Below are positions 1 to 22,074 of a stretch of DNA of 24,675 nt, piece after piece (positions within the stretch are counted from its first letter, which is position 1; the number at the start of each line of letters is the position of its first letter). The DNA lies in IMG/VR virus record IMGVR_UViG_3300010151_000153, positions 1 to 24,675 of that record. One strand, written 5' to 3'. This DNA is from a virus. The notes beneath the pieces were generated by a model, which was given only the letters and a program-made list of their open reading frames with translations, was not told the DNA's origin and did no database searches. The position numbers were made by a program, and so were the translations under genes.

Positions 1-3000
1 CAGTAAAACAACATGTTCCTAATGGTAAACAATTATTATTATAATAATCACAATCGATTCCACTTTCATCTAATATAGTATTACAATTAACAGAACATAA
101 ATCAGATGTTGCATATAGTAAATCATCACCCTTCCATCTATTTCTGTTATGAATTAAACAATCGTTTCCATTACAATAAGGAATTTTACAACTTGATAAT
201 ATATTTGAACAGTAATATTGACTACTTTCATAATTACAAGTATCACATTCACAACAAGGACCCGAAGGTAATTCTTCTGAGCAAACATCGGCGGTTGGGA
301 GGTCAGTTGAACCCATATCACTTGTAGGATATCCAAATACCCTAGTACAACCAGGAGTAAAATATCCAATATATACCATACCTCTTCCACTATCACCCCA
401 TTCTGTTACATCACCAGGGTCTTCATCATTTGGTCCAACATCTTCTCCGTTAGTTGAAGACTCAACATATCTTAAAGCAAGTCTTATATTTTGATTCGAT
501 TCGACAATCTTAGATGTTAATGTTCCTGTACTTGATTCCCAAGCAAATGCATTATTTGCATCGTAATACCCACCAAGAGGTCTCGATGAAGTCCAATAAA
601 CACCATTAAGATTACTTCCACCATAATCAGCATACGAAGATGCAATTTCTGGATGTTGACACATTTGTTTCCATAAGAAACCAAATTCATCTTTAGACAT
701 AACATAAAGATTTATTCTATCATCTCTTACAGAATTTAACGGATGATTAAAACCACCATCTAAATCTATTGTGGTAAATATACCACCCTCTAACCCACCA
801 TATGCTGGGTCAAGTCCAGAACTGCAATTAGAGTCTCTGAGGCTTGCGACATTATACGGACCGTTTAAATCTTCACCACATTCACCCTCATTACATTCTT
901 GTAGAGGCCAACCATGTGTATTGAAATATCCATCCGAAGGACGAGTTATACCAATTCTGGATGGTGTGAAATCTGTGTTGTCATTTAATGCCCATCTATT
1001 TTCATCACAATCATTCAAATCAATATAAATATGCCAACCTATTTGTTCATTTAGTTTTGATGGACAACTGTCACCACACGGGTCTGTGTTTGGGCAGTCT
1101 GCCTCACAACAACTTTCTTTTGGATAATGTATACATGTCCCACAAGACGGTTGTAATTCGGCACAATCAGTATCGGTTAAATTTTCTACACATGCACAAT
1201 TATCACAACAGCATGCTCCTGTTTCGGGGTTTACTATTTCGCAAGGGTCAGTACTACATTCCGAACCAGCACCTTGGAAGTTTCCTCCCAACGCTACACA
1301 TGCTGCCGAATTGCTAACATCTACACAGGTGTTATCTGACATACAACAAGCACCCTGAAGAAAATCACAACAATCTATATCTGCATCATTGCACGTTGTT
1401 CCATTTCCTCTGTAGTCACCACCTGCTGATATACAACTATCTTCAGATTCTTCAAAGCATATTCCAAATCTACAACAAACACCAAGAGAAACACACTCAA
1501 CACAAGTATCAGAAGGAGGAGAACCCTCGCATTCTGTATTTGGGTCACAATCTCCTCCTCCTCCTGTCCATGTTCCACTTACTGCACTACAATCATCTTG
1601 TGTATAATATGGATGTGCTTGTCCCTCCGCACAACAACAACCCAGAAGTGGAGTTTCTACGCAAGCACTTCCACATTCAGCAATGCAAGAGGTATTTTCA
1701 CATATATTTTGCATGCAAGCACCGTTATGAAAACTATCCCCATCCCAATTATAACAAGAAAGTTCACAAAGTTCATTTGGCGGCTGACCGGATTCGCATG
1801 TCCATTTTTGAGTTTCTCTGCAATCACCAACACCGGCAGCAGTTAACTGATTACCAACATCGGTAATATTTTCCCCCCAAACACAAACTCTTGCGCCGCC
1901 TACACAACCACAACCATTCCAAAGTACTGGTAGTGCATCACAACAGTGAACAGGTTCTTCATCAATAGGAGAATGCCATACACCATCATGTTTTGTGCAA
2001 CCCTCATCAGATATTTCTTGACATTGTAATGGTTCACCGTAACAGCAAGCACTACTAGGACATATTGGTTCGCATCCACTATTAGCACATGTTACATTAA
2101 AACCTTTGAAGTCTCCATCTATATCAATACAATCTTGTTGAAATAATTCTTGACAATCATAACACACTTGACCATCTGATAGTGAGTCTGTACAACAAGC
2201 ACCCAAAAGTTGTATAGGGTCATCACACGGATAATCATTACATTGAACTGCGGAACAATCTACTCCAAAAAAGAAATATCCACCATATAAATCACAGTCT
2301 GTTGCGTTGCTTTGTATACAAGTATGCATAGTGCAACATGCGCCTTCTGTATCATCTGAACAAAAAGTATTTTCGCATTTTGTTTTCAGGTGAAATTCTC
2401 CACCAAGTTCAAGACAATCTCCTCTTGTTGTATAATCAGCACATCCATTATCTGCCTTGTCATAACAACATGCACCCATTTCATCCGAAAGACCTTCAAA
2501 AGTAATTCCATAATTTATACCAGGATTTAATGCTAACCATTTATGTGTTCCGTTTGATGTTGTATCTGTAATCGCCTGCTCTGTATAAACAAAATTAAAT
2601 ATATCAATACCATCACTAAACTCTACAGAATCTGGGTCTGGGAATATAGCAGTTATATAATCTTCACTATAACTATCAGCAGTGTCGAAGATATCAACAG
2701 GTCTTAAACCTTCATCCAATAAACCGTGTGATGCCGCATTATACAAAATTAATGTAAAGTTTTGTGATGTTGAAAATGTTTGTCCGTTATAACTAGTATA
2801 ATTATCATATGGAAGTTTAATGTAGCCGGTGTTTGCACCACAATAAATCTTCTGCATATTACCACCAGTCATATGAAGTTGAACATCTACCCTATCTGTT
2901 TGAGACCAACCAACAGGATAATCATAAGTTCCTGATTGGTTTCCGTGTCTCTTAACAAATTCTCTATGGTCTATAAGTTTTGTTGATAAAGATTCATGAT

Positions 3001-3739
3001 ACGCCGATGCACCATCAGAACCTTTCGGCCAACTACTCACACTCCAATATGTTCCACTCGCACCAGCAGCATGAGAAGATGTTCCAGATGTCATATAAAT
3101 TAATTCACCTGTTCTTCCCATATCAATCGCATCTTCAGCGTTTGCTTTGATTCCTCCAAGCATAATTGTACCGTTTGGTAAAACTTGAAGTTGAACATCA
3201 TTATATGATTCTATAACTTTGAAATATGCAGTTGCACCATCGAGAGAATATATTAAAGGAACACCATCACCAACCGAACGAATCATAATAGGTCCTGTTG
3301 TTCCTGTATTTCCTGTAGCACCCAATATTCTTGCTAGTACTCCGTTATCAACTCCTGGATGACTTCCAGGAATTTCAAAGGTTCTTCCTCTTTGTGTTCC
3401 ATCAGAAGATGTTGATTCTTCTCCCAAAAATAAAACCAAAGACTCTTGTGGGCTTCCACAGATACCTGCATAACGATAATATCTAAAATCTCCTGTAGCG
3501 ACACCAAATACAGGCGCACCTTTATCATCAAAATGTTGAAAAATTATTGGTGCGGTAGGTCCACAATAACCAAAACCCACACCAGTTGAACCTAGAGGTC
3601 CAATAATTCCTGTGATTCCTTTTGGTCCTGTTGCTCCTGTCGGTCCTGTTGGACCTGTTCCACCAATATCACCAACCCTTGGGTCAGAAGGATTTCCGGT
3701 AGGACCGAATACTAAAATGTGTGAACTATTGTTTATCAT
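1..3739 (-). CDS. Giant cysteine-rich mosaic tail/fibre protein with collagen-like N-terminus (partial, runs off left edge)
   Basis: I read this frame by hand from the ATG at 3739 (AAGG ribosome site upstream) without a stop to base 1, at least 1246 codons. Residues 26-53 are ten Gly-X-Y triplets (GPTG type). Residues about 60-420 are a non-cysteine structural region related to the protein encoded just upstream at 3757-4914. From about 421 to 885 comes a dense cysteine region with repeated GACC units ending in GG-x-F/Y-x-G-x-x-C. Residues about 900-1090 look like an Lcl_C/DUF1566-type domain (KDEFGFLWKQ, then YWTSS, AFAW and RLALRYV). Cysteine-rich sequence resumes from about 1132 to the edge. 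I count about 94 cysteines. By position, last in the fibre group, I infer a host-contacting adhesin or fibre component. The function is not established; the C-terminus is unseen. Confidence 0.85.
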   Translation of the reverse strand, partial: MINNSSHILVFGPTGNPSDPRVGDIGGTGPTGPTGATGPKGITGIIGPLGSTGVGFGYCGPTAPIIFQHFDDKGAPVFGVATGDFRYYRYAGICGSPQESLVLFLGEESTSSDGTQRGRTFEIPGSHPGVDNGVLARILGATGNTGTTGPIMIRSVGDGVPLIYSLDGATAYFKVIESYNDVQLQVLPNGTIMLGGIKANAEDAIDMGRTGELIYMTSGTSSHAAGASGTYWSVSSWPKGSDGASAYHESLSTKLIDHREFVKRHGNQSGTYDYPVGWSQTDRVDVQLHMTGGNMQKIYCGANTGYIKLPYDNYTSYNGQTFSTSQNFTLILYNAASHGLLDEGLRPVDIFDTADSYSEDYITAIFPDPDSVEFSDGIDIFNFVYTEQAITDTTSNGTHKWLALNPGINYGITFEGLSDEMGACCYDKADNGCADYTTRGDCLELGGEFHLKTKCENTFCSDDTEGACCTMHTCIQSNATDCDLYGGYFFFGVDCSAVQCNDYPCDDPIQLLGACCTDSLSDGQVCYDCQELFQQDCIDIDGDFKGFNVTCANSGCEPICPSSACCYGEPLQCQEISDEGCTKHDGVWHSPIDEEPVHCCDALPVLWNGCGCVGGARVCVWGENITDVGNQLTAAGVGDCRETQKWTCESGQPPNELCELSCYNWDGDSFHNGACMQNICENTSCIAECGSACVETPLLGCCCAEGQAHPYYTQDDCSAVSGTWTGGGGDCDPNTECEGSPPSDTCVECVSLGVCCRFGICFEESEDSCISAGGDYRGNGTTCNDADIDCCDFLQGACCMSDNTCVDVSNSAACVALGGNFQGAGSECSTDPCEIVNPETGACCCDNCACVENLTDTDCAELQPSCGTCIHYPKESCCEADCPNTDPCGDSCPSKLNEQIGWHIYIDLNDCDENRWALNDNTDFTPSRIGITRPSDGYFNTHGWPLQECNEGECGEDLNGPYNVASLRDSNCSSGLDPAYGGLEGGIFTTIDLDGGFNHPLNSVRDDRINLYVMSKDEFGFLWKQMCQHPEIASSYADYGGSNLNGVYWTSSRPLGGYYDANNAFAWESSTGTLTSKIVESNQNIRLALRYVESSTNGEDVGPNDEDPGDVTEWGDSGRGMVYIGYFTPGCTRVFGYPTSDMGSTDLPTADVCSEELPSGPCCECDTCNYESSQYYCSNILSSCKIPYCNGNDCLIHNRNRWKGDDLLYATSDLCSVNCNTILDESGIDCDYYNNNCLPLGTCCFT

Positions 3740-3756
3740 TAACCAACCTTATATTG

Positions 3757-4914
3757 CTACCAAGAAAAAGGATTATTATCTTTTTCTGTTCTTACATACA
3801 TCCCATACCACTCTATTTTTTCTGTTATAGTATCGGTATTTCCTAAAGTAATAAATTGTACAATATCTATATCGTTACTTAGAGTAGGACTCAAAGAATA
3901 TCCAAATTTCCAATTTTTAGGAAATACCTCATAATAAGGATAAGACACCGTTTCTTCGTCTCTATTTATTCTTTCTCCTGTTGTTTTTCCATCAATAACA
4001 ATCAAAGTAAAACCCGAAGAACTAAACGGTGTAAACTTCTCTAAATATTCATCTGGATTATTAGAAGATTCAGACGAATCTAAAAATCTAACAAATGGTT
4101 TTTGTTCATCTGTTGGTGGCCCGCCCCACCACAATTCATAATCTTTATTTGGGTCTACTACAAAAACCGTACCAGATAATCTGCCATAATCTTCTGCTCT
4201 TGCCGCTTCCAACGATAATGCATCTATTGGATTTATTTTATAAATAAAAGTATTATATTCTTCATCAAATTGCCAAGGTGAAATCCTAGACGAAACTTCA
4301 TTATATTTTCGGATTGTTGCTTTCAGTGCATGTGTTGGTCCACCATAATAATGTGTAAGGGTGGCACCAGACAATCCCGTAGTACCCGCACTATTTGCTT
4401 TTGCATATACCAAACCACCTGTTGGACCGTGTGCTGTTACTGCATCAAATGTCGTATATCTAACTCGTATTTTATCTTCGTTATCTTCGATACGAAGACC
4501 GTTTCCGCCTGTAATACTTTTTAAATATAAAACTCCATTAACACTATCTTTCCATAAAACACCTGCTGTTGCATAACCTGTATTTTCGCCTCTGAGATAA
4601 TATATTGAATCACCTGTCGGTCCTCGATAATGCCCAGCATCTGCTGTTACTGCTTGACCACCCACATCGTTGTATTGTAATATAAGATGGTGTGCATTTG
4701 GACCTGTACTACTATAAGTAACACCGATAACAACAGGACCCGTTTCACCTGTCGGTCCTGTATTTCCTAGAGACCCTGCGGGTCCTGTTGGTCCACTAGA
4801 ACCAGTAGCAGCATAACCAGATGTTCCGCCAGAATTCCATTCAAAAGGATGAACCCAAGGGTCTCCTGTGGGTCCCTGTGTTCCAATGTTGAATGGATGA
4901 GAACTAGAAGACAT
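3757..4914 (-). CDS. Collagen-like virion structural protein, probable fibre component
   Basis: 385 residues, ATG at 4914 preceded by TAGGAT. Residues 38-59 form eight Gly-X-Y triplets (GPTGPAG, GPTGETG), and an isolated GPTG lies near residue 14. Such short collagen-like stretches in phage fibre genes are known to form trimeric stalks. The rest is rich in beta-type sequence and ends EWYGMYV...NPFSW. Its C-terminal third (FSSSGFTLIV, then SNDIDIVQFITL) aligns by eye with the pre-cysteine region of the downstream giant protein (FSTSQNFTLIL, then SDGIDIFNFVYT), so the two look like paralogues. It sits 11 bases after the collar-domain gene, in the fibre group. A tail-fibre or adhesin role is inferred from context; I do not recognise a catalytic or named receptor-binding domain. 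Confidence 0.8.
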   Translation of the reverse strand: MSSSSHPFNIGTQGPTGDPWVHPFEWNSGGTSGYAATGSSGPTGPAGSLGNTGPTGETGPVVIGVTYSSTGPNAHHLILQYNDVGGQAVTADAGHYRGPTGDSIYYLRGENTGYATAGVLWKDSVNGVLYLKSITGGNGLRIEDNEDKIRVRYTTFDAVTAHGPTGGLVYAKANSAGTTGLSGATLTHYYGGPTHALKATIRKYNEVSSRISPWQFDEEYNTFIYKINPIDALSLEAARAEDYGRLSGTVFVVDPNKDYELWWGGPPTDEQKPFVRFLDSSESSNNPDEYLEKFTPFSSSGFTLIVIDGKTTGERINRDEETVSYPYYEVFPKNWKFGYSLSPTLSNDIDIVQFITLGNTDTITEKIEWYGMYVRTEKDNNPFSW

Positions 4915-6430: not shown

Positions 6431-9400
6431 CTAATTTTCTATTACCGGTGATGGAAACGCATTGTTAAAATCTGCATCTGCTTCGTAATGAACCGTAACA
6501 GTATCTAACGGAACTGCACCACCTAAAATCTTTATTTCTATTGCATTCGGTGTATCCGAACTATATTTAACATTTATAGAATTTGCTCTTGTTGACCTTC
6601 CTCTTCCATCATACCCCTTTGTTCCTGCAACATTTCTTAGGTCGTTTGATGCATCGCGGTTGAATGCTTCATCCGCAATACCTGTTGGAGACCACAACGA
6701 ACATGTTGGATTTTTTCTCATTCTTTCTGGGAATTCATATACATTTAAATATGAGTTGGGAACAACAAAATTTATACCACTTGTATCTGGATGTGTTCTA
6801 GTAGACATCGTGTTAGAACCAGGATGTATTCCATAAACATAACTATGTTGATAATATCTTTGACATTTTCTCAATTCTTCGTTTGGATTAACTAAATTGA
6901 ATGCTGTTGGAACATTTCCTCGTTCTAATTTTATTTGCGATAAATGTAAATCTTTCATAAAATTAATATGATTATTTGTATCTTGTGTATAAAATGCAAG
7001 AGAAGCAAAATGGTCACCAGAAACACCAAGAGATATATTATGATTTGATGCCGATGCACCGGCTGCACTAGATAATTCAGGAACAAAGAACGAGAAGTTA
7101 TATGGCTCCCAATTAGTAGTCAAACTAAAATCAGAAATTGGTGTTATAATTTCACTCGCCGTAACACCCAACCCCGATGATGATGCATATAAACCACCCG
7201 AAGTTGCACCAGGCACTGCACCTGTTGTTCCTGTGAGGTTTTGTATAAATGCAACATGACAATCTCCTGTTGCATGATAATTGTTTGGATTAGCACCTTT
7301 AGCATAAAAAGAAACAGTCATAACTTCACCTGCAAAAGAAGTACAATCTTCAATTCTTTGTTCTACTCTACACCATTCATTATTCATAGTACCACCGCTA
7401 AAAGTAATACCACCACGAATTATTGAATAATAATCTGGATGATTTGGAATTAAAGTTTCTTTCTTATTAAAACTTCCTCTTGCAATTTTATAATCAAATG
7501 AACGAGATGTACCACCAACACTACCTGTAGTTGGATTTATGCTGCCCGTTCCTGTTTGAGATACTCGTAACCATCTATCTGCAAAATAAGCGTTTGCGGT
7601 TCCTCCCCACGCATGGGTAGTTCCTGTTCCTCTTTGCCAGATTCCAAAATCAGGATTTATCAATTCGTTTTTATTTACTTGAAGTGCGTTATCATATGTA
7701 CTTCCTGTTCCCCCAGTTGGTCCTAGAATATTAAGACTTGAACCTATTCTGTGTGAACGAGATTTAAATTGACCACCACCACCTCTACGAGACTCCGCAC
7801 CCGAAATCACAGGTGCATCTATATTCAACACAACTCTTGTTGGTGAAATCGCATCTAATACTTTGACGGATAAAGCGTTTCCGGGAGAAGTTCTTAAATT
7901 TCCGTTTTCGTGTAAATAGTGTGTGCCGGGTTCCGATAAAACACCAGAACTTAATGTTACCGTTCCTGATGTAGCAACTCTAAAATAATTATTAGTTGCA
8001 TCTACATAAGTTATCATTCCTAAAACATGAGATTTCTCTAAAACTGTGGAATCTGCTAAATTTAAACCGGATGTCTGTTGTGGGTCTACACAAACAATAT
8101 TTCCTTCTACAAAAGTTTGTGAGGATGAATCATAAGAACGAACAAACGAAGTTAATTCTCCACCACTTGCACCACCTGCACCACCTGCACCACCACCGGT
8201 GCAACCTGTACTAGAATTATACTGACCTCGATAGGGAAGAATAATACCAGAAGTTTTTCCTGTTGAAACTAAAACAGGTCTATTAATATAACCTGCAACC
8301 CTTGGTTCTTGGAATTGTATTTTTCCTCTATCAGCACTATTGTATATCGAAAGAAAGTATACATTGCCGGGTACTAGTCCCTCTGTATGATTTTCTACAA
8401 GAGCCGTATTCCATTCGGAAACTGTTCCTGTAATTTCTCCCATATATGTTATATCAAATGTGTCGTTGTTTACAACTCTTGATATAACACCAATTACTTC
8501 CGCAGCACGGATACCATCTCCATGTAATTCGTTCTCTCCTGCGGCAGAGGCATATGTATATCCCTGAGTCGTTCCGCTATATCGAATAACATTACCAAAA
8601 GCAAATCCGTGATTATTTTTTACAATTCTTTGTTTGTTTGCACCTTTCACGATGTTTACATAACCGTCTGATTGGAACTCTACGAGTGCCCCTGCTGTAT
8701 TTCCTATAACAAGAGCGTTGGGTGCTGTTTGGTCATTAAAACCGCCTGTACCTGTCCACGGGTCTCCTGTAGCACCAACCCTGTCCCCTCTACCATCAAC
8801 TTCAAGATAGTTGAACCCATCAAGAGTAGGTCCAAAGTACATCCGTACAACACCACCTTTTACCCCTCCTTGTTCAGAATTCCAATCATGTTTATTTTTT
8901 ATATCTGCACTGCAACCTGTATATCCGTATGGTCCGTGTGGATAATCATCACCGGTTGAACCTTCTGAAGTTCTTCCCGTAAATACTTCTTGGTGATTTA
9001 ATCTACCCTCTAACCACAATGCTTCTTTTGTTCGCCATTTTCCTTCTTTGTGTATAAGATATGGTCTATCAAAAACAAAAGAATTATAAAAATCTCCACC
9101 ATCGTCAATTGGTTTATCAATTGATGCTGGATTTGGTCCTGTTGCACTACCACCAATAATCAGCCCAGAATAATCACATCCAACCGCAGGAGATTCGTTT
9201 GTGTTTAGAATAATAAGATTTTCATCAAAATTATGTCCAACAGTTACCCCACCACTTATAGCATCTACACCAATAAGATTACCGGCAACTCTGAGTTGTC
9301 CACCAATACTAAGATTATTACAGAAAGTAGAATGTGTTCTTAAAACATTACCAGAAAATGCAACTGCAAGTGTACCACCAGTACCCAATGCCATCATCAT

Positions 9401-9727
9401 TCCATCACCGGGTGTTGCACCATATACATGAAGTTGATTTAACTTTTCGATAATTTCGGTGTTTGTTTTCACTCTCCATGATTCAAAAGTATCATTTAGT
9501 TCTACATCACCAATAACATAATCTTTACCATAAACACTTAAAGTATATCCACGAGCCCCACTATACTGGTCATAAGAATGGACACCATATTCACTGGGAT
9601 AAATACTTCCAGTACCACCAGGCAATGCCCATGAAGCATGCGTAGTACCACCTATACCTGCTAGTCGATGACCACCATAAGCATATGTGTATCCTGTACA
9701 ACCTCCGAAATATCCTCTTCCTGCCAT
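6431..9727 (-). CDS. Large tail fibre/baseplate appendage protein
   Basis: 1098 residues, the longest complete gene here, ATG at 9727 with AGGAT upstream. Residues 78-102 (NDTFESWRVKTNTEIIEKLN) match the attachment-type segment seen near the start of many T4-like marine fibre proteins. Residues about 360-500 and 526-637 are two copies of a beta domain (GFAFGNVIR, EVIGVIS, NVYFLS, NRPVLVS). Residues about 510-525 are a Gly/Ala/Ser linker. From about 690, NPDFGIWQRG...ADRWLRVS resembles the carbohydrate-binding-like jelly-roll module of phage fibres, and LRKCQRYYQHSY near 950 is a common fibre motif. It probably corresponds in role to the proteins encoded at the gp10-gp12 position of T4. The exact place in the virion is inferred. 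Confidence 0.85.
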   Translation of the reverse strand: MAGRGYFGGCTGYTYAYGGHRLAGIGGTTHASWALPGGTGSIYPSEYGVHSYDQYSGARGYTLSVYGKDYVIGDVELNDTFESWRVKTNTEIIEKLNQLHVYGATPGDGMMMALGTGGTLAVAFSGNVLRTHSTFCNNLSIGGQLRVAGNLIGVDAISGGVTVGHNFDENLIILNTNESPAVGCDYSGLIIGGSATGPNPASIDKPIDDGGDFYNSFVFDRPYLIHKEGKWRTKEALWLEGRLNHQEVFTGRTSEGSTGDDYPHGPYGYTGCSADIKNKHDWNSEQGGVKGGVVRMYFGPTLDGFNYLEVDGRGDRVGATGDPWTGTGGFNDQTAPNALVIGNTAGALVEFQSDGYVNIVKGANKQRIVKNNHGFAFGNVIRYSGTTQGYTYASAAGENELHGDGIRAAEVIGVISRVVNNDTFDITYMGEITGTVSEWNTALVENHTEGLVPGNVYFLSIYNSADRGKIQFQEPRVAGYINRPVLVSTGKTSGIILPYRGQYNSSTGCTGGGAGGAGGASGGELTSFVRSYDSSSQTFVEGNIVCVDPQQTSGLNLADSTVLEKSHVLGMITYVDATNNYFRVATSGTVTLSSGVLSEPGTHYLHENGNLRTSPGNALSVKVLDAISPTRVVLNIDAPVISGAESRRGGGGQFKSRSHRIGSSLNILGPTGGTGSTYDNALQVNKNELINPDFGIWQRGTGTTHAWGGTANAYFADRWLRVSQTGTGSINPTTGSVGGTSRSFDYKIARGSFNKKETLIPNHPDYYSIIRGGITFSGGTMNNEWCRVEQRIEDCTSFAGEVMTVSFYAKGANPNNYHATGDCHVAFIQNLTGTTGAVPGATSGGLYASSSGLGVTASEIITPISDFSLTTNWEPYNFSFFVPELSSAAGASASNHNISLGVSGDHFASLAFYTQDTNNHINFMKDLHLSQIKLERGNVPTAFNLVNPNEELRKCQRYYQHSYVYGIHPGSNTMSTRTHPDTSGINFVVPNSYLNVYEFPERMRKNPTCSLWSPTGIADEAFNRDASNDLRNVAGTKGYDGRGRSTRANSINVKYSSDTPNAIEIKILGGAVPLDTVTVHYEADADFNNAFPSPVIEN
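8161..8196. repeat. Short in-frame tandem repeat, about four 9-base units
   Basis: Plus-strand unit CACCACCTG: a first copy with one change (CACCACTTG), two exact copies, then a partial fourth. Read on the minus strand it encodes the Gly-Gly-Ala linker (residues about 510-525) between two beta domains of the 1098-residue fibre. The period is a multiple of three, so copy-number change would lengthen or shorten the linker without breaking the frame. Confidence 0.8.
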
Positions 9728-13392: not shown

Positions 13393-15114
13393 CTAATCAA
13401 CAAGTTGAATTATGTCATTGACAAGAGTAAGTATAATTCCCATTTTAGGATTTACGTTGTTTGATTTTGGTCGTACCCGAACATAAAAATTACTAATAAA
13501 TTCAATACCATCAATCTGAACATTTCCTGTATTTGCATTTACCGAACCAACATTCAAAGATATCAAAGTACCGTCAGAAGAATAGTGTCGAATATTACCA
13601 GCACCATCATCTCTTAGATATCCTAAGATTTGATTGCCGTTTATATTTGCAGTGAAATTGTTACTACGGAGAACAGACCCTACCAAACCACCAGACTCGA
13701 CCAACGGATTACTAAAACTAATAGAAACTGCATTTATAGGATTACTTTCTGATGCACCAAACTGTTTTCTTAAATATACAACAAGAGTTTCACCAATCAA
13801 GCCTGTGTCTAATTTTAATAGTTGGTTTGCAAAATCAGTAAAATCAAAATTAGACTCGAATGTGTCTAACCTATAATTATTAACAAAAGAAATTACTTTA
13901 TCCGACAATTCTGATAACGAACTAGAAGTTTCATCTAAATTATAAAATACAGAACCATTTAAAATTACTTCAACCACCGATGGGTCTACAAATTCAGGAA
14001 GAATAGAAACCACCGATTTGTCTCTGAATATTTGAACAATATCATCTTTTTGTTCTTGTGTTAATAATGTTCCATCCTCTGCAACCGCAGAAACAAAAAC
14101 TCTTCCGTATTGTGGTGGGTCGTTATCTTCTCCGCCCCAAGTTTTTGATACAATTCCTCTTCTTTCTTGACGAAGTAATGCTTTATAGTCTTTGGCAGTA
14201 ACTGCTCTTCCTTGTGTTTGAAAAAACAACGGTGCATGTGTTCTTATGGAATCTACTGATTCTTTGTTTATACCGTTTCGGGAAGGAGATATTGTTGAAA
14301 CCACACTAACACCATCAACGGAAGTAGTAAAGGATGTTACACCATTTCCATCGGTTCCGGCAGTTATCAAATAATCAAACGATACTTGCGAATCATGAAC
14401 AGGAGATTTTCCTATAACACCATCTCCAAAATAAATTTCATAACCACCATCAAAAGATGTAGTCAAAAAGAATACTTTCTCTCCTGCTGTTACACCTGTT
14501 ACATTTCCATCTACTTCATCAACTATTCTCCATCTGTTGAAACCACTACCCTCATTCACGTTAACCTTTAATGTTGTAGTATCAATATCTCCATGTGGTA
14601 TTCTAAATCTTTGATGTGATATACCACTATCAACAGTGTCTTGCTCTGGTGGAGTTTCTATTCTATTTCCTTGAATCAGTTCTATTGTTGTATTTTGTGA
14701 GTCGGGTAAGTTATAAGATTTAATAGGAGTCCAATTCAATCCACCACCAAAAAAGGCATCGCCGTAAACGACGACATTAGAACCTGAAGATGAAACTTCT
14801 ATTTCTGTCCTTGCACCTCTTTTTGAAACCGGAACATAAGAAAGAGGTTTTACCAAAGAACCTATGGAATCTCTTTTTGTTGCTGTATCTAAAAAAGATT
14901 CATTTGCTACCATGTTTGCATAATAAGAATAAAATGTACTATTATATGATAACACATCTATTAGTGTAGATAATGCTGAACCTTCAAAATCAAAATCTGT
15001 AAATACATCAGAACCCTCAAAGAAATCTCTAATAGAATCTCTAATGTCAACAAATCCTAATTTTCCTAAATTTATAACTGGGTTGTCTGTGGTTGAACCT
15101 TTAATGTATACCAT
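13393..15114 (-). CDS. gp6: Baseplate wedge protein gp6 (baseplate J family)
   Basis: 573 residues. The ATG at 15114 directly abuts the gp25 stop; GGAGAG in the end of gp25 can serve as ribosome site, so the two are probably translationally coupled. T4 gp6 (660 residues) dimers form the inner ring that ties wedges together and triggers sheath contraction. Diagnostic runs: FTDFDFEGSALSTLIDVLSY (38-57), TKRDSIGSLVKPLSYVP (79-95), and 290-340 with RTHAPLFFQTQGRAVTAKDY, then TWGGEDNDPPQYGRVFVS. The EIYFGDGVIGKSP motif (226-238) is also typical of baseplate J proteins. Length and motifs are normal for the family. Confidence 0.93.
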   Translation of the reverse strand: MVYIKGSTTDNPVINLGKLGFVDIRDSIRDFFEGSDVFTDFDFEGSALSTLIDVLSYNSTFYSYYANMVANESFLDTATKRDSIGSLVKPLSYVPVSKRGARTEIEVSSSGSNVVVYGDAFFGGGLNWTPIKSYNLPDSQNTTIELIQGNRIETPPEQDTVDSGISHQRFRIPHGDIDTTTLKVNVNEGSGFNRWRIVDEVDGNVTGVTAGEKVFFLTTSFDGGYEIYFGDGVIGKSPVHDSQVSFDYLITAGTDGNGVTSFTTSVDGVSVVSTISPSRNGINKESVDSIRTHAPLFFQTQGRAVTAKDYKALLRQERRGIVSKTWGGEDNDPPQYGRVFVSAVAEDGTLLTQEQKDDIVQIFRDKSVVSILPEFVDPSVVEVILNGSVFYNLDETSSSLSELSDKVISFVNNYRLDTFESNFDFTDFANQLLKLDTGLIGETLVVYLRKQFGASESNPINAVSISFSNPLVESGGLVGSVLRSNNFTANINGNQILGYLRDDGAGNIRHYSSDGTLISLNVGSVNANTGNVQIDGIEFISNFYVRVRPKSNNVNPKMGIILTLVNDIIQLVD

Positions 15115-15603
15115 TTATCTTAATCTCTCCATTTGTATTTTTACAGAAACATCTTCCGAAGATACATTCCCACCAACAGGATTTATGGTGAATATTACTT
15201 CTATATTTAATTCTAAATAATCTTGGTCTTCAGAAACCAAAACTTCCTTTACTGTTACTCTTGGTTCCCATTTTTCAAGTTGCTTCTTAATAGATTCTTT
15301 TGTACTCCATCTAGCCCAAGGGTCTTCAAAACTTTCAAAAAGCAACTTTCGTATGTTACATCCCATTAATGGTTTCCAAGGTCTTTCATAATGATTGGTC
15401 ATAACAATATTTTTAACAGACTGTTTGATAGCATCTACATCAAACTTTCGTACAACATCTCCATTAAGTCCTTGCAATTGATATAAAGGACTTGAATCGA
15501 AAATAAAATCCAAGTCTGAATATATGTAATTTCTATCCCCTAATCCTCTATAGTTAGAAGTAGGGCTAGAATCTCCTGAATATCCCGAACCGTATCGTCC
15601 CAT
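15115..15603 (-). CDS. gp25: Baseplate wedge protein gp25 (GPW/gp25 family)
   Basis: 162 residues, ATG at 15603 with AAAGGGAA upstream. T4 gp25 is 132 residues and seeds sheath assembly at the wedge together with gp6 and gp53. Family landmarks: DVDAIKQSVKNIVMTNHYER (55-74), PWKPLMGCNIRKLLFE (75-90), and the invariant EPR (113-115) in KWEPRVTVKEVLV. The first 30 residues are a Gly/Ser/Tyr-rich extension. It is immediately followed by gp6, its structural partner, which supports the call. Confidence 0.93.
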   Translation of the reverse strand: MGRYGSGYSGDSSPTSNYRGLGDRNYIYSDLDFIFDSSPLYQLQGLNGDVVRKFDVDAIKQSVKNIVMTNHYERPWKPLMGCNIRKLLFESFEDPWARWSTKESIKKQLEKWEPRVTVKEVLVSEDQDYLELNIEVIFTINPVGGNVSSEDVSVKIQMERLR

Positions 15604-16897: not shown

Positions 16898-18223
16898 TCA
16901 TACACACTCGAAATTATCACAAGTTGTATCATCTCCACCATAATATCCACCATCTACCAAACACTGTGAATAATCATAATCATTATAACACGAACCACTT
17001 ATACAACATACACCTGTACTACAATTACATTGAACCTCCTCAAAACATGTAATATCTTCACACTTACTATCAAATCCATACCACTCGCCATCACAAATAT
17101 CAGGAAACTGTGTCTCTGCACAATGACCATCTGTAAAACAACACGCACCTGTTGGTGGACACTCTTCGCACTGGGCACAACAAGTCCCAGAACCACTGCA
17201 TCCAAAAGACCCATTTGTACAAACACAACATTGACCATCTGGACAAGGCTCATAGTCTTCCGGATTGTTACAGTTCATGGGATGACAACAAGTGTCGCCC
17301 CCCCAAGGACAATTTACACACTGACCCTCTATACAACAAAGAGGTTCACAATCAGAATTTTCCTCACATTCATCACCACCACCACCGCCGCTATCATCAC
17401 ATTCTTCACATACTCCATCATTACAACACATATCATCTTCACAATCAGTATGTAAACAACAGTCGCCGCAACATTCCCAACAAGGACAACTACAATCCCA
17501 AATTCCGCCTAAAAAATCACAATGACAGTTATTTATATTCCAACAAGAATACCAACCAAAATGACACGCACACTCTTGGTCGGGTGTTTCACACTCAATT
17601 TCATCAGGCCAAACACCAGGATAAAAGTCTCCACCCACCTCACCACAACTTTCATCATTTGTTCTAGAAGCACGTTTATAACAAAGTTGACTAAGACAGC
17701 ATGTTGGATAATAACAACAAGTCCCCATTACGGGAGGTTCTGGGTAATCGCACAATCCGTCTACACATTGTTGACCACCACCTTGAAATGAACCCTCTGC
17801 ACCACAGCATTCATGACAAGGCAATATAACACAACCACCATCATTAGGTAAACAACACGCACCATATCCAGTACATACACAATCAAGTCCTTCTGGTGGG
17901 TCTCCCAATCCTCTAAAACCCCCCACTATTGTTTCACATGCAGTATCATCTCCCTGATATATTCCGTTTTCGTTAGCACATTCTTCTTGTAAATAAGTGT
18001 TTATACATGTTACATCATCCTCGTTTTCACAAAAACAACACGCACCCCTAACATGAAAACAATTAACAAAAGGGTCTGCACATAAACTATCTGTGCCTTG
18101 ATATGTACCACCAATACCACCATCTTCAACGCTTCTTTCACATAACTTTTGAGTTACATTATCTCTACATGTTTCATTGGGTAAACAACACGCTCCCCTA
18201 TCACAACAACACGGTCTCTTCAT
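16898..18223 (-). CDS. Cysteine-rich GACC-repeat protein of unknown function
   Basis: 441 residues with about 81 cysteines (18%), ATG at 18223 with AGGGGAT upstream. It starts MKRPCCCDRGACCLPNETC with no hydrophobic signal peptide. Repeat units follow GACC-(L/F)-x-C-x-C-x-GG-x-(Y/F)-x-G-x-(T/S)-x-C, for example GACCLPN, GTYQGTDSLC; GACCFTDGHC, GFDSKC; GVCCISGSCYN, GYYGGDDTTC. The middle (about 230-350) is denser, with CxCxC and CC pairs and a poly-Gly stretch (about 288-294). The protein is acidic. The gene is in line with, and evenly spaced from, the hub genes on both sides, so it is probably co-transcribed with them and a virion part. Disulfide-stapled or metal-binding folding is possible. 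I do not recognise a named domain. Confidence 0.9.
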   Translation of the reverse strand: MKRPCCCDRGACCLPNETCRDNVTQKLCERSVEDGGIGGTYQGTDSLCADPFVNCFHVRGACCFCENEDDVTCINTYLQEECANENGIYQGDDTACETIVGGFRGLGDPPEGLDCVCTGYGACCLPNDGGCVILPCHECCGAEGSFQGGGQQCVDGLCDYPEPPVMGTCCYYPTCCLSQLCYKRASRTNDESCGEVGGDFYPGVWPDEIECETPDQECACHFGWYSCWNINNCHCDFLGGIWDCSCPCWECCGDCCLHTDCEDDMCCNDGVCEECDDSGGGGGDECEENSDCEPLCCIEGQCVNCPWGGDTCCHPMNCNNPEDYEPCPDGQCCVCTNGSFGCSGSGTCCAQCEECPPTGACCFTDGHCAETQFPDICDGEWYGFDSKCEDITCFEEVQCNCSTGVCCISGSCYNDYDYSQCLVDGGYYGGDDTTCDNFECV

Positions 18224-21583: not shown

Positions 21584-21611
21584 TTGTGTTATCCTTAATT
21601 TTAATGAATTC

Positions 21612-21619
21612 TATAAATA
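21612..21619 (+). promoter_or_regulatory. Candidate T4-type late promoter ahead of gp4
   Basis: TATAAATA, the exact -10 consensus of T4 late promoters, lies in the only divergent spacer of the window (21584-21639), 20 bases before the gp4 ATG. A start about 6 bases downstream would begin the transcript near the GGAG at 21625. The same octamer also occurs by chance inside genes in this AT-rich DNA (for example 4239 and 24064), so position rather than sequence carries the claim. The minus strand shows only weaker versions (two mismatches) here, so the promoter of the leftward block is unclear. Confidence 0.45.
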
Positions 21620-21639
21620 TATATGGAGAAAATAATTTT

Positions 21640-22074
21640 ATGGCGTACAAATCAAAGTATAATCCCAACAACGCATCAAAATACATAGGAAATGTAAATA
21701 ATATTGTATGTCGCTCATTGTGGGAAAGACGGGTATGTAAATATTTAGACGAAAACAAGAACATATTGCGGTGGGGAAGCGAAGAAATATCCATTCCGTA
21801 TTATTCAAACGTAGACAAAAAGTGGCATAAGTATTATCCAGATTTCCTTATTGAAAAAATAAACAAAAATAATACAATAGAAACCCTAATAATAGAAGTA
21901 AAACCAAAAAAACAGACAAAACCACCAAAGAAACCAAAAAGAAAAACAAAGAACTATATCAAAGAATGTATGACATACGAAATAAATTCAGCAAAATGGA
22001 AGGCTGCAACAAAATATTGTAAGGAAAACAAATGGAAATTTATTATTATAACAGAAGACGATATTCTGTTATAA
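21640..22074 (+). CDS. gp4: Head completion protein gp4 (nuclease-like fold)
   Basis: 144 residues from the ATG at 21640, chosen because GGAG lies 11 bases upstream and the homologous start is MAYKSKYNPNNASKYIG; an in-frame start further left would add 18 residues unlike the family. T4 gp4 (also called gp50/4) is needed to finish DNA-filled heads before tails attach. Matching signature: NIVCRSLWERRVCKYLD (21-37), WGSEEISIPYYSNVDKK (45-61), YYPDFLIE (65-72), IIEVKPKK (84-91), then WKAATKYCKENKWKF (120-134). E29, D68 and E86-V-K88 form a PD-(D/E)XK/TnsA-like arrangement. The lysine/proline-rich run at 87-104 is strongly basic. It opens the rightward block and is the only head-related gene in the window. 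Confidence 0.92.
   Translation: MAYKSKYNPNNASKYIGNVNNIVCRSLWERRVCKYLDENKNILRWGSEEISIPYYSNVDKKWHKYYPDFLIEKINKNNTIETLIIEVKPKKQTKPPKKPKRKTKNYIKECMTYEINSAKWKAATKYCKENKWKFIIITEDDILL

Follow-up and report, generated by a model that had tools for sequence, protein, structure and literature searches.

A giant collagen, GACC-module and Lcl_C-like protein, probably a tail fibre, of uncultured marine T4-like phages

The Legionella protein Lcl is a proven trimeric adhesin: its collagen-like stalk brings the chains together as a trimer, and its C-type-lectin-like DUF1566 head binds glycans. The chain starts with a helix at the N terminus, followed by a single stalk and a single head at the C terminus, and has no cysteine modules (PMC11162425). 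In marine phages, receptor-binding candidates of pelagimyophages and cyanomyophages carry collagen, concanavalin and major-tropism-determinant domains (PMC7029224). Here, we describe a giant gene, P1, at the left end of a 24,675-base stretch of viral DNA (the window), which is the whole of the fragmentary IMG/VR record IMGVR_UViG_3300010151_000153, base 1 being the record edge. Like Lcl (PF07603; PDB 8q4e), which is also the best fold match of its domain, P1 combines a collagen-like stalk with a domain predicted to be C-type-lectin-like and DUF1566-like; unlike Lcl, in which the stalk joins the C-terminal head directly, P1 has the two separated by other domains, about 840 residues in all, and continues past the Lcl-like domain. 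With the pelagimyophage and cyanomyophage proteins it shares the structural operon of marine T4-like phages, but their description makes no mention of cysteine modules (the word 'cysteine' is absent from it; PMC7029224), and tblastn with P1 relatives was empty in deposited phages.

We propose that P1 is probably the N-terminal part, perhaps a third to half, of a giant tail fibre with which an uncultured marine T4-like phage binds its receptor; the fibre is presumably trimeric and would have a disulfide-knot shaft. It likely represents an adhesion fibre of a known kind, with collagen stalk and lectin-type domain, extended by a cysteine-module shaft for which we found no described family.

A conserved giant gene with a fixed domain order

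P1 and its parts lie as follows, the basis of each assignment being given in brackets.

2..3739, minus strand: P1, giant collagen-GACC-Lcl-like protein (open frame, 1246 codons, 3′ end cut by the record end)
3695..3730, minus strand: N-terminal peptide NSSHILVFGPTG, residues 4-15 (inspection of about 100 N termini)
3575..3673, minus strand: collagen-like stalk, 11 Gly-X-Y triplets, residues 23-55 (motif count and shuffling)
3323..3574, minus strand: structural region 1, residues 56-139 (conserved among orthologues)
3287..3322, minus strand: second, short Gly-X-Y run, residues 140-151 (motif count)
2477..3274, minus strand: structural region 2, residues 156-421 (collagen-free profile search)
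1064..2476, minus strand: GACC cysteine-module block, residues 422-892, about eight modules of GACC type, of which some are degenerate (module survey and shuffling)
1643..1939, minus strand: most variable insert within the cysteine block, residues 601-699 (16-33% identity to orthologues)
263..1063, minus strand: predicted Lcl_C/DUF1566-like domain, residues 893-1159 (motif, alignment, PDB profile match 4eps, model and fold search)
455..715, minus strand: Lcl_C-like core with YWTSS...AFAW...RLALRYV, residues 1009-1095 (motif and alignment; predicted local distance difference test, pLDDT, block values of 54-87 here)
2..262, minus strand: second cysteine region, residues 1160-1246, exiting the record (homologues carry up to about 2,500 residues more after it)

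The frame begins with an ATG and is complete at its 5′ end, runs free of stops for 1246 codons and is still open at base 1. It encodes 97 cysteines, and its composition departs strongly from that of 2000 shuffles of its own residues: nine GxCC motifs occur (shuffled mean 0.9, maximum 5), four modules have all six cysteines (mean 0.03, maximum 2), and the longest Gly-X-Y run holds 11 triplets, against 7 or fewer in any shuffle. The original prediction, made from the letters of the window, had described one open frame of at least 1246 codons with about 94 cysteines, ten Gly-X-Y triplets, about 465 residues of cysteine modules, the YWTSS...AFAW...RLALRYV pattern and a second cysteine region leaving the window. 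The recount gives an uninterrupted frame, 11 consecutive triplets and 471 module residues (422-892), and locates the pattern and the second region at residues 1009-1095 and 1160-1246; the description is thus confirmed, its numbers correct to within a few units, and its interpretation is supported in part.

P1 alone as query found no relative in the viral contigs searched. A search with the T4-type gp6-like baseplate protein of the window led to six related viral loci, and P1 orthologues occupy the same site wherever the contigs reach. The orthologue in G003 is 57% identical over residues 4-1245 with no internal stop, that in G005 is 43% identical, and further ones occur in G006 (its frame interrupted by a run of N), L034, L035, L038 and L039. 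Because P1 is conserved over its full length in another record, a frameshift or a chance frame is very unlikely, and P1 is a genuine, well conserved gene.

Domain order was compared among the orthologues of sufficient length (G003, G005, G006, L035 and L039), and it is fixed: N-terminal peptide, collagen, structural regions, a GACC block containing one variable insert, further GACC modules, the Lcl-like domain and a cysteine region. The orthologues differ by insertions, some of them gained by the Lcl-like domain, and by divergence; the swapping of modules that the original prediction had envisaged is not seen among them and is unsupported. Relative to the distant orthologues, the N-terminal parts are 35-64% identical, the variable insert 16-29% and the Lcl-like core 21-43%. 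In the near-identical pair L038/L039, a small sample, the first 1,200 codons of P1 hold four silent and zero replacing changes, and every changed amino acid lies beyond residue 1,208.

L105 encodes a P1 homologue in one complete frame of 3771 residues, with about 200 cysteines per chain, and complete frames in a more distant clade (1,881-1,950 residues) follow the same plan in about 1,900 residues; therefore, the window holds perhaps the first third to half of P1. In a third group, the Lcl-like domain is C-terminal in a collagen-GACC protein of about 1,050 residues. Near the C terminus of the G006 homologue (L031 9056-13816, minus strand) there is a von Willebrand factor A match below the Pfam cut-off (E 0.084).

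In the N-terminal half, the motif [G/N/S]S[S/A]x[I/F/V] stands ahead of the collagen run in the majority of some 100 collagen proteins from the group, the neighbouring P2 among them, and we propose that this peptide of P1 serves for docking. The 11 triplets are uninterrupted Gly-X-Y repeats of the PF01391 kind, although the run scores 9.9 with that Pfam model, under its cut-off of 27.2. Many collagen-GACC proteins share the first ~80 residues of structural region 2, as matched by a profile free of collagen sequence (E about 1e-17 to 1e-4). The predicted model of the N-terminal region is poor (pLDDT 46.9), and T4-type long and short tail fibres (gp12, gp34-37) gave no Pfam or PHROG match in P1. 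The 'paralogous domain' of the original prediction holds in so far as P1 matches P2 by BLASTP (E 1.8e-6), but the aligned part includes the collagen run, and with collagen-free profiles the matches are weak and short.

The family is widespread. A profile of the 1098-residue tail-fibre-like protein of the window collected 71 loci, the number of independent ones being somewhat lower because a few contigs are near-identical, and 48 of them could be judged, having enough downstream sequence or the protein already visible. In 44 of these 48 records, collagen proteins with GxCC motifs follow the tail-fibre gene on its downstream side, often two or three in tandem, and the other four are distant partial matches. 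Among 50,697 deposited phage records, tblastn found no match to P1, pieces of its closest orthologue or the Lcl-like domain, nor to a distant orthologue, the C-terminal-Lcl protein, the second GACC protein P3 of the window or a 28-module GACC protein, and the last was also without a match in plasmids. For one group member, the closest capsid proteins are those of Methylophilales phage Melnitz and of cyanophages (Synechococcus), which are T4-like, at about 61%, with that of Pelagibacter phage HTVC008M at 58%. The modular combination that had looked unfamiliar is indeed a giant mosaic protein in a T4-like tail cluster, but it belongs to a widespread family and not to one phage, and collagen with DUF1566 was already known in Legionella Lcl (PMC11162425). 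With its presence in 44 of 48 comparable records and its absence from the deposited phages searched, this putative fibre family near T4-type baseplate genes could serve as a marker for the phage group.

The Lcl_C-like domain and the cysteine modules

Residues 893-1159 are predicted to form a remote Lcl_C-like (C-type-lectin) fold, on convergent lines of evidence that are each modest. The motif [Y/F]x[P/M]Sx[D/E/N]E...W[T/S]S...R is conserved across 15 aligned sequences, in which seven columns are invariant (D47, Y123, S126, E129, W160, S162 and R201), and motif scan and alignment both recover the DUF1566-type pattern [WY].[IVL]PSx[DE]E[LMF]...W[ST]S...R. P1 has no match to Pfam Lcl_C (PF07603) even at E 10, short of the gathering threshold, and two relatives show sub-threshold Lcl_C matches at the equivalent place (E 0.009 and 0.089). 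Over the YVPSxxEL...YWSST segment, a profile search of the PDB matches 4eps with E 1.3e-5; 4eps, a pilin tip from Bacteroides ovatus that has a DUF1566-type domain, is a bacterial protein and, unlike P1, devoid of collagen and GACC modules. The AlphaFold model of the domain has a core pLDDT mostly of 70-87 and a predicted template modelling score (pTM) of 0.66. With this model, Foldseek ranked the Legionella Lcl head 8q4e first among 350,542 chains (probability 0.77), followed mostly by C-type lectins, VIA placed 8q4e first and then intimin and C-type lectins, and DUF1566 phage proteins ranked near the top in a viral structure library. The folded lectin-like domain at residues 900-1090, which the original prediction had left for structure prediction to refute, was not refuted by modelling and fold search.

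In Mtd and other retroelement-diversified phage receptor-binding proteins, a C-type-lectin fold forms the binding head of a fibre. The predicted fold of P1 in a probable phage fibre is alike, and the idea that a diversity-generating retroelement (DGR) varies the Lcl-like domain as its target is attractive because DUF1566/C-type-lectin domains are the most common DGR targets and are found in Bacteroides phages with DGRs (PMC6642488, PMC8143477). Unlike for the Mtd-type proteins, no reverse transcriptase was found in 30 group records of 16 to 123 kb, all fragmentary, and no template-like repeat of the domain occurs within the window; therefore, retroelement diversification is unsupported. The domain is, moreover, internal and not C-terminal, and we consider such a target very improbable.

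The cysteine modules follow the spacing GACC..x4-5..C..x7-8..C..x12-13..C..x4..C, with the six-cysteine consensus GACCVGDGCIDEVTESECSELGGTFFGEGSTCEDVDC drawn from 273 canonical modules in 99 frames, which include some overlapping copies of one contig. The module matched no Pfam or NCBIfam model, and in a profile search of the PDB its best hit, iRhom2 (E 0.0045), is not convincing. One bacterial candidate was rejected: the sole genome match of a natural GACC segment was the frame of a PAS-domain kinase in a Spirochaetaceae metagenome-assembled genome, carrying 'GEDGACCC', a false positive.

Tail-gene setting and proposed role

P1 lies downstream of baseplate and tail-fibre-like genes, a gene order that its relatives share. 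The neighbours, along with which another baseplate wedge gene also lies on the minus strand of the window, are the following.

3757..4914, minus strand: P2, 385-residue collagen protein free of cysteine that shares the N-terminal peptide of P1 (adjoins P1 in close relatives)
6431..9727, minus strand: 1098-residue tail-fibre-like protein (phrog_4492, E 8.6e-31)
13393..15114, minus strand: T4-type baseplate wedge gp6-like gene (phrog_219, E 1.2e-119)
15115..15603, minus strand: baseplate wedge (gp25-like) gene (phrog_261 and phrog_43)
16898..18223, minus strand: P3, second GACC protein, 441 residues, 81 cysteines, within the baseplate cluster

The receptor-binding device of the original prediction is the likeliest role of P1, considering the tail-gene cluster and the Lcl-like fold, and we infer it from these. 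First, the N-terminal peptide could dock P1 to the baseplate or to a neighbouring fibre protein, and the Gly-X-Y run could form a triple-helical joint. The long series of small six-cysteine GACC knots could then make up a thin, protease-resistant shaft, most simply becoming disulfide-bonded after the virion leaves the cell. Finally, the Lcl_C-like C-type-lectin domain, possibly with more C-terminal domains past the record end, may bind a glycan or protein of the host surface. A trimeric, tail-attached fibre with a GACC shaft is suggested because of the analogy with Legionella Lcl, the stalk of which trimerises and the head of which binds glycans (PMC11162425). The conserved N end, together with a more divergent variable insert and, in most of the distant orthologues, a more divergent Lcl-like region, supports the fibre model.

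The same fibre could stand on the virion surface with no part in host choice, anchoring the particle to polysaccharide, marine gel or mucus, or acting as a whisker by which fibre deployment is controlled. A comparable anchoring role is ascribed to Ig-like Hoc decorations, several collagen-GACC proteins occur per phage, the cysteine-rich P3 sits within the baseplate cluster, and Lcl itself, a homotrimer with sulphated glycans among its ligands, binds charged glycans and not one specific receptor. However, the genes adjoin baseplate and tail-fibre genes and not head genes, and divergence is among the highest in the insert and, for most of the distant orthologues, in the Lcl-like region, as is expected of host-specific parts; we therefore hold this reading to be unlikely. 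Alternatively, P1 could be an adhesin made during infection and secreted or displayed at the surface, and not a part of the virion, since Legionella Lcl, built along broadly similar lines, is secreted and sits at the surface; but no signal peptide is apparent in P1 by eye and the gene lies within a structural cluster, so that there is hardly any likelihood of it.

Several points weigh against a receptor-binding fibre with a disulfide-knot shaft. The placement of P1 in the virion is drawn from gene context, no Pfam or NCBIfam model matched P1 above cut-off, and its PHROG tail matches fall on the collagen runs. The mean pLDDT of the Lcl-like domain model is 57.8, and since the scores to 8q4e are low (Foldseek E 0.22; VIA Z 4.0) and the PF07603 cut-off was not reached, we name the domain Lcl_C-like and not a member of PF07603. 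It also lies mid-protein, the complete homologue extending more than 2,000 residues beyond it, unlike the tip position in Lcl. Lastly, disulfides in the GACC modules would need to arise either within a reducing cytoplasm or later, and no phage-encoded Erv-type oxidase was found in these fragmentary records; glutaredoxin gave sub-threshold matches only, in two records.

If P1 is a fibre, its GACC cysteines could instead bind zinc or iron, with no disulfides, and the fibre would fold in the reducing cytoplasm. Phage tails assemble in the cytoplasm, no phage-encoded Erv oxidase was seen, and CC pairs with nearby cysteines suit metal sites; on the other side, the six regularly spaced cysteines of each module fit three disulfides, and no PDB relative was found that would show metal binding, which leaves metal sites the lesser possibility by a wide measure. 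Returning to the disulfide-bonded shaft, GACC is quite possibly a new small cysteine-knot class that serves marine T4-like phages as an extensible fibre unit, giving giant, covalently locked tail fibres, assembled despite the reducing cytoplasm, with internal lectin-like domains. The cysteine content implies about a hundred disulfides, or metal sites, in each fibre chain, which raises the testable question of how a phage forms or shields them. Few receptor-binding proteins are known from the abundant uncultured phages of the sea. The P1 family offers a concrete candidate for host attachment.

Further collagen-GACC proteins and neighbouring genes

In G006 (L031 3-9041, minus strand), four more GACC proteins, of 481+, 1506, 434 and 579 residues, follow the P1 orthologue head to tail, and in the 1506-residue one a collagen run and structural region are again present. 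G028 (L106 3454-9219, minus strand) encodes a collagen-GACC protein of 1922 residues in which GxCC occurs 28 times and cysteine makes up 13% of the residues; after it comes a 1140-residue paralogue whose N terminus is almost the same.

A cysteine-free, P2-like collagen protein stands directly before the giant protein in two clades (L034 14899-16068, L043 14025-15170, L091 14047-15207 and others), its sequence apparently little conserved between them. P3 has orthologues of 396-551 residues in L003, L004 and L006, and its position in L007/L008 is taken by a less cysteine-rich protein of 1068 residues. On the opposite strand, at 21586-22074 (plus) of the window, there is a 162-residue frame, MAYKSKYNPNNASKYIG...LWERRVCKYLDEN, which presumably resembles the T4 gp4-type head completion proteins, and a similar frame occurs in L004.

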